A DNA stretch of 64,000 nucleotides, from positions 247,501 to 311,500 of the forward strand of contig NZ_CP089980.1 of assembly GCF_021389955.1 (NCBI RefSeq), written 5' to 3'. A model generated the notes under the pieces. It saw only the letters and a program-made list of their open reading frames with translations, ran no database searches and had not been told where the DNA came from. Position numbers and translations under genes: made by a program. Positions within the stretch are counted from its first letter, which is position 1, and each line of letters opens with the position of its first letter. Of this stretch, positions 4,305-18,568 are shown one piece after another. This stretch comes from Fulvivirga maritima. GTDB taxonomy: Bacteria; Bacteroidota; Bacteroidia; Cytophagales; Cyclobacteriaceae.

Positions 4305-4386
4305 GCGGATGTGGCGAAATTGGTAGACGCACTAGACTTAGGATCTAGCGCCTCCGGGCATGGGGGTTCGAGTCCCTCCATCCGCA
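4305..4386 (+). tRNA. tRNA-Leu(TAG)
   Basis: An 82-nt class II tRNA. The acceptor stem GCGGATG pairs with CATCCGC followed by discriminator A. The D-arm is GCG-AAATTGGTAGA-CGC. The anticodon stem CTAGA/TCTAG encloses loop CTTAGGA, so the anticodon is TAG, reading CUN leucine codons. A long variable arm precedes the T-arm with loop TTCGAGT. CCA is not encoded. A hairpin with a T-run follows at 4396-4446. Confidence 0.97.
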
Positions 4387-17760: not shown

Positions 17761-18237
17761 TCAATGATCTTTCATTTCCAGCTGAATATTTCTATTTATA
17801 CTCTCCTCTAATGAAATCATGGTATCCGTTCTCACAATACCTTCTACACGCTGTATTTTATCATGCAACACATTTTTTAGATGCTGCGTGTCTTTACAGT
17901 GGATTTTAGCGAACATACTGTAATTACCAGTAGTGTAATGCACATTAATAATCTCAGGAATCTGTTTTAAGGCTGCTATTACTTGATCATACAATTCACT
18001 TTTAGAAAGGAAAATGCCAATAAAAGCAGTGATATCATATCCAAGCTTAGTATAATCGATCTTAAGCGTAGTTCCTTCTACTACCCCCATATCTTCCAGC
18101 TTTTTCATTCTCACATGCACAGTACCTCCTGAAACAAACACTTGCTTGGCTACTTCCGTGTATGGTTTTTTGGCATTTTTTAGTAAGATTTCAAGAATCT
18201 TAAGATCTACATTATCAATTTCGTAATTCGCAGGCAT
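17761..18237 (-). CDS. Lrp/AsnC family transcriptional regulator
   Basis: 158 residues. The N-terminal helix-turn-helix reads NVDLKILEILLKNAKKPYTE, with the recognition segment FVSGGTVHVRMKKLEDMGVV; the C-terminal RAM/ligand-binding domain has IPEIINVHYTTGNYSMFAKI and RVEGIVRTDTMISLE. Feast/famine regulators respond to amino acids. The gene is minus-strand, 115 nt upstream of sufB, with its own AT-rich promoter region; a link to suf regulation is possible but unproven. Confidence 0.92.
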   Translation of the reverse strand: MPANYEIDNVDLKILEILLKNAKKPYTEVAKQVFVSGGTVHVRMKKLEDMGVVEGTTLKIDYTKLGYDITAFIGIFLSKSELYDQVIAALKQIPEIINVHYTTGNYSMFAKIHCKDTQHLKNVLHDKIQRVEGIVRTDTMISLEESINRNIQLEMKDH

Positions 18238-18346: not shown

Positions 18347-18354
18347 TACCTTTG
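18347..18354 (+). promoter_or_regulatory. -7 promoter element of the tRNA-like RNA
   Basis: TACCTTTG matches TAnnTTTG exactly and lies 19 nt before the tRNA-like RNA, the same geometry as at tRNA-Leu (18 nt). The -33 position is AT-rich with no clear TTTG. Confidence 0.6.
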
Positions 18355-18373: not shown

Positions 18374-18506
18374 CTGTAGGGTGTTGAAACTGGCAGACAT
18401 GCCCTCCGGTCTCGAGGGTGGAGACGACAGGATAAATTCCTTAATGCATCCAATAGCAATGGGAACTAACTGCTCCGTGGAGGTTCGAATCCTCCCCCTA
18501 CAGCCA
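18374..18506 (+). ncRNA. Unusual tRNA-like RNA, about 130 nt, encoded CCA
   Basis: Clear tRNA-like parts: acceptor stem TGTAGGG (18375-18381) with CCCTACA (18496-18502), discriminator G18503 and encoded CCA; a D-arm-like segment with the conserved GG in AAACTGGCAGA (18387-18397); and a T-arm GGAGG-TTCGAAT-CCTCC (18479-18495). A 5-bp stem CCCTC/GAGGG (18402-18406, 18414-18418) sits where the anticodon arm should be, but its 7-nt loop CGGTCTC has G instead of the invariant U33. About 60 nt (18419-18478), against 10-20 in class II tRNAs, follow before the T-arm; GGAG/CTCC can close this insert. Total length is far beyond a tRNA but too short for tmRNA, and no ALAA-type tag is encoded. It may be a degenerate or intron-bearing tRNA, or a dedicated tRNA-like RNA. 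It has its own -7 box and a strong terminator. Confidence 0.65.
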
Positions 18507-18510
18507 GCTC

Positions 18511-18568
18511 AAATCTTTTGCAATAAAAAAGGAGGCTTTGTAGCCTCCTTTTTTATTGCAAAAGATTT
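18511..18568. terminator. Perfect 27-bp inverted repeat, bidirectional terminator
   Basis: Bases 18511-18537 are exactly complementary to 18542-18568 around a TTGT loop. The GC-rich core GGAGGCT/AGCCTCC is flanked by A6/T6, giving T-runs on both strands. It starts 5 nt after the CCA of the tRNA-like RNA and ends 12 nt before the stop codon of the convergent lipoprotein gene, so it can serve both. The stem is unusually long and mismatch-free. Confidence 0.85.

Follow-up and report, generated by a model that had tools for sequence, protein, structure and literature searches.

A widespread tRNA-like RNA of Bacteroidota and their phages as a candidate carrier for tRNA-dependent asparagine synthesis

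Introduction

Asparagine can be synthesized on transfer RNA (tRNA). Specifically, a non-discriminating aspartyl-tRNA synthetase (AspRS) and the amidotransferase GatCAB act on tRNA-Asn in Deinococcus, Thermus and Bdellovibrio, as described in PMC4206432. That source also lists 18 genera that have asparaginyl-tRNA synthetase (AsnRS), glutaminyl-tRNA synthetase (GlnRS) and GatCAB and have no asparagine synthetase, and Bacteroidetes are among their clades. Here we characterize a tRNA-like RNA with a giant variable arm, which is encoded in a 64,000-nucleotide (nt) stretch of the Fulvivirga maritima genome (assembly GCF_021389955.1, contig NZ_CP089980.1, forward-strand positions 247,501 to 311,500; hereafter the window), together with its relatives in other bacteria and in phages. 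Its anticodon loop resembles that of tRNA-Asp and its acceptor end that of tRNA-Asn, suggesting that it may be a carrier for tRNA-dependent asparagine synthesis distinct from the decoding tRNA.

Results

Fold of the RNA

An initial annotation, made from the window sequence, had described an oversized tRNA-like RNA of about 130 nt with a 7-base-pair (bp) acceptor stem, an encoded CCA, GG in the D-loop, a TTCGAAT T-loop, U1-A72 and G73, an anticodon-position loop CGGTCTC lacking U33, a class II-like D-arm, and an insert of about 60 nt. All of these were found at 18375-18506 (Table 1), where a cloverleaf with a 7-bp acceptor stem, a 5-bp anticodon stem and a 5-bp T-stem is present.

Table 1. Features of the RNA locus in the window, and AsnB-like loci elsewhere in the same genome
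Feature	Position	Strand	Remarks
Lrp/AsnC-family regulator	17761..18237	-	divergent from the RNA; PF01037 AsnC_trans_reg
Candidate -7 promoter motif, TACCTTTG	18347..18354	+	spotted by eye
Cloverleaf RNA	18375..18503	+	129 nt; G73 is the last base
Acceptor stem, 5' strand, U1-G2-U3-A4-G5-G6-G7	18375..18381	+	partner is 18496-18502
D-arm, 3-bp stem, 11-nt loop with GG	18384..18400	+	resembles the D-arm of the genome's tRNA-Leu
Anticodon-position arm, CCCTC-CGGTCTC-GAGGG	18402..18418	+	
Anticodon-position loop, C32 G33 G34 U35 C36 U37 C38	18407..18413	+	
Giant variable arm	18419..18478	+	60 nt between anticodon stem and T-stem
Variable-arm closing stem	GGAG 18420-18423 with CTCC 18473-18476	+	paired 100%; 2 of 4 pairs changed on both sides
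T-arm, GGAGG-TTCGAAT-CCTCC	18479..18495	+	
Acceptor 3' strand CCCTACA and discriminator G73	18496..18503	+	
Encoded CCA	18504..18506	+	across the family only the first C is kept (C74, 122/122)
Intrinsic terminator-like hairpin	~18517..18562	+	terminator scan
AsnB-like loci (L357-L360)	590539-592216 and 3542799-3544431 of the genome		one split between frames, the other with an internal stop

Covariation supports a tRNA fold that includes a giant variable arm. We aligned 34 copies on a cloverleaf plus a variable-arm hairpin and compared the alignment with 500 shuffles. Cells of this structure were paired in 95.1% of cases versus 87.8% in the shuffles, cells changed on both sides numbered 83 versus 26.7, and 12 of the 29 pairs had changed on both sides; no shuffle (0/500) matched the real alignment on paired cells or covariation score. 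The outer pair of the D-arm was A-U in 16 copies, U-A in 10 and unpaired in eight, including the window copy (U-U). The closing stem of the variable arm was paired in every copy (GGAG/CTCC, GAAG/CTTC, GGGG/CCCC, GGTG/CACC and others), and 76.9% of the cells of the distal hairpin were paired. Two motifs, RGGAYAAA and CUAAC, sit between these two helices; they read GGATAAA and CTAAC in the window copy, the tip of which is hypervariable. The arm, as derived from total lengths, spans roughly 40-125 nt across copies. However, genome G035 carries a natural 79-nt short form without it, in which U1-A72 and G73 are kept and the loop reads CTATCTC, indicating that the giant arm is dispensable.

An interrupted tRNA, one of the possibilities first raised, is not supported, and an intron was rejected: the insert is conserved, has its own covarying stem and belongs to the RNA. 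The initial annotation had named two outcomes that would refute it, a normal anticodon arm elsewhere in the RNA and stems that are not conserved, and neither was observed. When the window copy is folded alone, its minimum-energy structure keeps the acceptor and T-stems but differs in the centre, with a modest z of -1.72, which speaks against the cloverleaf. However, this alternative centre has 0 pairs changed on both sides versus 4 pairs (24 cells) for the cloverleaf centre, and the helices as a whole covary in the 34 copies.

The strong terminator of the initial annotation was recovered as a hairpin by a terminator scan, which returned three overlapping forward-strand versions of one site and one small reverse-strand site, where shuffles expect 0.3. 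As for the -7 box it had proposed, TACCTTTG is readable by eye upstream of the RNA and is what we take to be a Bacteroidota-type -7 promoter motif, although a sigma-70 scan of the window RNA locus gave no promoter match. The CTTTG of this motif is unchanged across all six copies of the RNA in the F. maritima genome.

In the sequences scanned, neither ARAGORN with default settings nor Rfam detected the RNA family. On the window, default ARAGORN and Rfam at the gathering score, tools the initial annotation had recommended, reported only the tRNA-Leu at 4305. Among four ARAGORN settings, three gave no gene, and the pseudogene plus intron mode returned tRNA-Ala on both strands. When Rfam was applied to 13 more loci (six at E<=1, seven at E<=3), no family passed its cut-off at the RNA; the few matches that overlap the RNA or terminator stayed well below (~23-29 bits; cut-offs at least 50), and a tRNA match with 34.8 bits lies off the RNA (L284, 39-153, with the RNA near 516). 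A variant of transfer-messenger RNA (tmRNA) was rejected, since neither ARAGORN nor Rfam gave a tmRNA model match at the RNA. A Y RNA (YrlA), one of the tRNA-like partners described for TROVE proteins such as Ro60, was also rejected: TROVE was found in 5/38 genomes and was absent from F. maritima, one of the 38. Separately, the F. maritima genome holds a second odd tRNA-like sequence of 98 nt at 1551730-1551827 (L348, 31-128), which scores 37 bits as tRNA and has no ARAGORN call; by eye, one long hairpin seems to substitute for its anticodon arm.

Charging and amidation signals

Aspartate identity consists of G73, G34, U35, C36 and C38, with a minor contribution of G2-C71 and some help from the first pair (PMC9976931). 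According to the same source, U1-A72 is what allows Asp-tRNAAsn to be amidated, whereas G1-C72 blocks this reaction, and PMC4206432 likewise states that bacterial GatCAB recognises U1-A72. We counted these positions in 122 distinct bacterial copies from 86 loci, which were collected by DNA similarity or with model R1, using no loop pattern. Copies were counted only when they had at least 6/7 acceptor pairs and a recognisable D-arm.

U1-A72, G2-C71, G73 and C74 were each present in 122/122 copies. When copies found by an anticodon-arm pattern were added, U1-A72 was present in 203/204 host copies among the matches listed. In the anticodon loop, G34 was present in 109 copies, U35 in 118, C36 in 120 and C38 in 118, in a count that retains at least four loops that seem mis-registered. 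Position 33 was U in 88 copies, G in 32 and C in two, while position 37 was U in 115, G in four (possibly mis-registered rows) and C in three, and never A; the U33-bearing loop CUGUCUC occurred in 60 of the 122. In other words, decoding positions are degraded while U1-A72, G2-C71 and G73 stay invariant. The window copy itself has all five aspartate determinants, with G33 and U37 where a decoding tRNA-Asp would have U33 and a purine at 37, and G1-C72 is absent from all 122 copies. GatCAB substrates are also expected to lack U20a in the D-loop; the base at that place reads A by eye (GGCAGA), with numbering uncertain in an 11-nt loop.

The tRNA genes of F. maritima allow a direct comparison. In its two ordinary tRNA-Asp genes the first pair is G1-C72 and the loop CTGTCAC; U1-A72 and G73 occur in its tRNA-Asn, whereas its tRNA-Gln has A73 (by eye), so that the resemblance to tRNA-Gln seen by the initial annotation is better placed with tRNA-Asn. 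C74 is also present in the 12 ordinary tRNA genes compared by eye; a minority of RNA copies encode CCA, and in most, GC is followed by different letters. Since both the published aspartate identity set and the U1-A72 amidation signal are present, the RNA reads as tRNA-Asp at its anticodon and as tRNA-Asn at its acceptor end, as judged from these rules.

Co-occurrence with GatB

A link with GatCAB was stated as a prediction ahead of the test, in which GatB was the subunit surveyed. The fixed sample comprised 395 genomes of the phylum, 98 of them in the class of F. maritima, and a genome was scored RNA-positive when its best match to model R1 had E <=1e-20. In the class, 37 genomes had both the RNA and GatB, none had the RNA without GatB, four had GatB without the RNA, and 57 had neither (p = 7.5e-23 by a Fisher test that is blind to kinship). 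In two families of 23 genomes together (f23 and f24), 18 genomes had both, five had neither and none was mixed. Outside the class, only three genomes, all of family f67, had a strong RNA match, and all three were GatB-positive. Among the four class genomes with GatB and no strong RNA match (G035, G350, G458 and G502), G035 is the one with the short form. Model R1 also matches sequences of ~85-90 nt with up to ~63 bits, presumably tRNA-Leu.

Distribution in bacteria and phages

The RNA is widespread in Bacteroidota and their phages. The F. maritima genome (6.39 Mb, one contig) carries six copies, several of them near-identical. The recommended search of relatives recovered the RNA by DNA similarity in 28/38 genomes, counting F. 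maritima, and a 20-base anticodon-arm pattern found at least 119 stretches in named genomes. Among the matches listed, many belong to Cytophagales (for example Dyadobacter, Algoriphagus, Cyclobacterium, Spirosoma) or Saprospiraceae, and a T-arm-like sequence lies downstream at 146/149 pattern sites of host loci. Of 27 host loci inspected, one (L151, a Chitinivibrionales record) was a chance pattern match where the rest of the RNA is absent. Tandem arrays of two or three copies were seen at L014, L016, L017 and L026 (genomes G013, G012, G009 and G017), several with differing variable-arm tips.

The same pattern occurred in 90 viral contigs; in 89 of them the loop is followed by a T-arm-like sequence. 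These viral loci, which are parts of contigs, contained at least one tRNA in 53/90 cases, at least five in 26/90 and at least 10 in 14/90, and a tmRNA in 7/90. A blastn search with the window copy against 50,697 phage and 72,556 plasmid records had no hits. In 50 fully parsed, distinct phage copies, U1-A72 was present in 48 and G73-C74 in all 50. A perfect palindrome of at least 6 nt was found after GACCAC in 26/31 distinct phage tips (for example L246, L256, L264, L284 and L289), compared with a mean of 6.4 and a maximum of 15 in 300 shuffles, whereas host tips had one in 3/43 versus 8.9 in shuffles. Such palindromes may allow loop pairing between two copies, that is, a kissing-loop dimer.

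Several further features of the phage copies were observed. The viral contigs L246, L261, L273, L284 and L285 bear a tmRNA, in several cases close to the RNA. Two divergent copies, L263 and L276, read A1-U72 by eye; at L263 there is, in addition, a tRNA call whose anticodon has four letters. At least nine copies (L221, L224, L225, L242, L272, L274, L284, L301 and L304) have extra D-loop sequence, hairpin-like by eye, with the acceptor partner lying further upstream.

Asparagine and synthetase genes

Genome G568, which has both the RNA and GatB, was read over 2.4 of 3.34 Mb (72% of the contig). It has GlnRS (723 bits, TIGR00440), AsnRS (669 bits, NF003037), a motif of the glutamyl-tRNA synthetase type, a GatA-type motif and, by ARAGORN, tRNA-Gln, tRNA-Asn and tRNA-Asp as well as an ordinary tmRNA. 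Because GlnRS, AsnRS and their tRNAs are all present, neither amide tRNA should need GatCAB in this genome. The AsnA search found no AsnA there, and its best AsnB-like protein scored 177 bits, short of the 267-bit threshold (genome-wide best E 3.0e-52; 3/5 candidates scored).

In F. maritima, AsnA was also not found. Two AsnB-like loci pass TIGR01536 in pieces and fail NF006949, the AsnB equivalog, each being interrupted in frame (Table 1); the interruptions could be sequencing errors. An extra class IIb synthetase was rejected, the genome having one each of AspRS, AsnRS and lysyl-tRNA synthetase. It also carries an ordinary tmRNA.

Gene neighbourhood

The RNA of the window is divergent from a gene of the Lrp/AsnC family. 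Among the matches listed, an Lrp/AsnC homologue was the divergent neighbour in 58/119 host loci, and other frequent neighbours were SufB (31/119) and an acyl-CoA synthetase-like protein, recognised by eye (25/119). We inspected 22/72 host and 22/128 viral neighbour clusters. The Lrp/AsnC neighbour fits amino-acid control, short of proof.

Discussion

The results suggest that AspRS and GatCAB probably act on this RNA, and the chances are about even that it is a dedicated carrier RNA for tRNA-dependent asparagine synthesis, largely out of decoding. By published rules, AspRS would charge the RNA with aspartate via G73, G34-U35-C36 and C38. GatCAB would then turn Asp-RNA into Asn-RNA, because the RNA opens with U1-A72, the pair of tRNA-Asn, and not with G1-C72, the pair of tRNA-Asp. 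The loop, which lacks U33 in the genus of the window and has a pyrimidine at position 37 nearly everywhere, would bar Asn-RNA from Asp codons, perhaps together with the giant arm. Asparagine would finally be freed or passed on, and AsnRS would load it onto normal tRNA-Asn; this release is the weakest step of the scheme. Phages with their own tRNA sets would carry the RNA to secure asparagine. The tandem copies and the invariant C74, which speak for maturation of the tRNA type, were counted in favour of this scheme. More tentatively, and at somewhat less than even odds, the RNA might be a recyclable RNA coenzyme with a body like that of tRNA-Leu, joined to the anticodon of tRNA-Asp and the acceptor end of tRNA-Asn, on which one Bacteroidota class makes asparagine from aspartate outside decoding, and that is carried by phages with a self-complementary tip loop which could pair two copies.

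Several observations weigh against the carrier role. Concerning the RNA itself, G1-C72 aids E. coli AspRS (PMC9976931) and is the very pair the RNA lacks, G34 is replaced in 13/122 copies (a few rows perhaps mis-registered), and 2/50 parsed phage copies have A1-U72. The tRNA-Asn of F. maritima itself bears U1-A72, so that a non-discriminating AspRS acting on it, as in Bdellovibrio, could use GatCAB without the RNA. Concerning co-occurrence, many sampled genomes outside the class have GatB and not the RNA, so that the RNA implies GatB and not the reverse; in addition, the RNA-positive threshold was chosen after the score gap had been seen (above ~88 bits versus at most ~63 bits), and the Fisher statistic ignores kinship. 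Concerning asparagine supply, AsnA was present in 3/37 RNA-positive versus 9/61 RNA-negative genomes of the class, most RNA-positive genomes have an AsnB-like gene, and a strong AsnB-like hit and AsnA were both missing in only ~5/37 (G033, G052, G142, G454 and G568), where AsnB was judged from E-values with three candidates scored per genome. The TIGR01536 survey is too broad to part true asparagine synthetase from paralogues, and some of the AsnB-like genes may be paralogues; the AsnA/AsnB survey lends no support to the RNA as the only source of asparagine. As for the release step, we know of no deacylase that would free asparagine from the RNA.

Two other roles share the same low likelihood. 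In one, AspRS and GatCAB act as proposed, and asparagine (or aspartate) is donated non-ribosomally to a lipid, peptide or protein. The same determinants, the GatB co-occurrence and the non-decoding loop would all suit such a donor, and aminoacyl-tRNAs serve as non-ribosomal donors with other amino acids. However, no transferase appeared among the commonest neighbours (most rarer clusters being unannotated), and phage carriage is better explained by a general supply role. In the other, equally unlikely, the RNA would act in regulation, as a decoy or sensor for AspRS, EF-Tu or a nuclease directed at tRNA-Asp, to which it would bind. This would account for the tRNA-Asp-like loop, G73, the many copies, phage carriage and the divergent Lrp/AsnC regulator. 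It leaves the invariant U1-A72 of the 122 bacterial copies and the tracking of GatB unexplained, and a decoy of AspRS should benefit from G1-C72. The initial annotation had likewise suggested a tRNA-like regulatory RNA that binds a synthetase or EF-Tu; synthetase binding is retained here as a prediction for AspRS, with GatCAB added, and a regulatory role as one of the less likely readings.

Decoding itself seems improbable. A second tRNA-Asp, or a programmed variant, with anticodon GUC would agree with the cloverleaf, the T-loop, the tRNA-type 3' end and the 60/122 copies whose CUGUCUC loop retains U33. Nevertheless, two ordinary tRNA-Asp genes exist, the window copy has U33 replaced, and position 37 is nearly always U; moreover, U1-A72 would be expected to permit amidation on a codon-reading tRNA and hence Asp-to-Asn errors. 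Still less probable is a ribosome-rescue or trans-translation-like system, to which the RNAs beside phage tmRNA genes in several contigs might point: ordinary tmRNA is present in F. maritima and in G568, the arm varies too much in length and sequence for a conserved reading frame, and the GatB co-occurrence would be left unexplained. Least probable of all, and very much so, is that the locus has no function as RNA and represents a pseudogene derived from a tRNA, an attachment site or a mobile repeat. Near-identical copies in one genome and tandem arrays would fit this reading; against it speak covariation of all helices, invariant identity positions, a promoter motif and terminator, the Lrp/AsnC-adjacent locus and the blank blastn searches of phage and plasmid records. 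The pseudo-tRNA of the initial annotation likewise finds no support, since different genera and phages retain the RNA and some genomes have it in tandem arrays.

If the carrier role is correct, it would explain why GatCAB is retained in many genomes of the class though at least some have both GlnRS and AsnRS. It would also represent a tRNA retired from decoding into metabolism, and phage RNA arrays would gain a biosynthetic member.

Comparison with known systems

As far as our literature search goes, the novelty would lie in a separate carrier that decodes poorly, tRNA-dependent asparagine synthesis as such being established. That search covered titles and the beginnings of abstracts, with supplements and most subscription papers outside its reach, and found no paper describing the RNA. 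The Bacillus cereus pseudo-tRNA (Rogers 2012) is reportedly a tRNA-like RNA that stands outside ordinary decoding; its shape, taxon and proposed role are reported to differ from those of the RNA described here. Compared with tRNA-Leu and other class II tRNAs (RF00005), our RNA shares the D-arm motif (GAAATTGGTAGAC in the tRNA-Leu of the window), the 7/5 acceptor and T-arm, and a long variable arm, but differs in G73, the anticodon loop, U1-A72 and the length of the arm (~40-125 nt). Like tRNA-Sec, which is also of class II, it is built unusually and would serve outside the standard tRNA set; in tRNA-Sec the acceptor and T-arm lengths are altered (PMC7609411), whereas the RNA retains 7/5. In that review of non-canonical tRNAs, the word Bacteroidetes is absent.

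The closest relative in function would be the route of Deinococcus, Thermus and Bdellovibrio. The two have in common both enzymes, the U1-A72 signal and hosts that also possess AsnRS and GlnRS; in that route, according to PMC4206432, the carrier is the decoding tRNA-Asn, used via a relaxed or second AspRS. In contrast, the carrier proposed here would be a separate RNA with an Asp anticodon, so that AspRS need not be relaxed.
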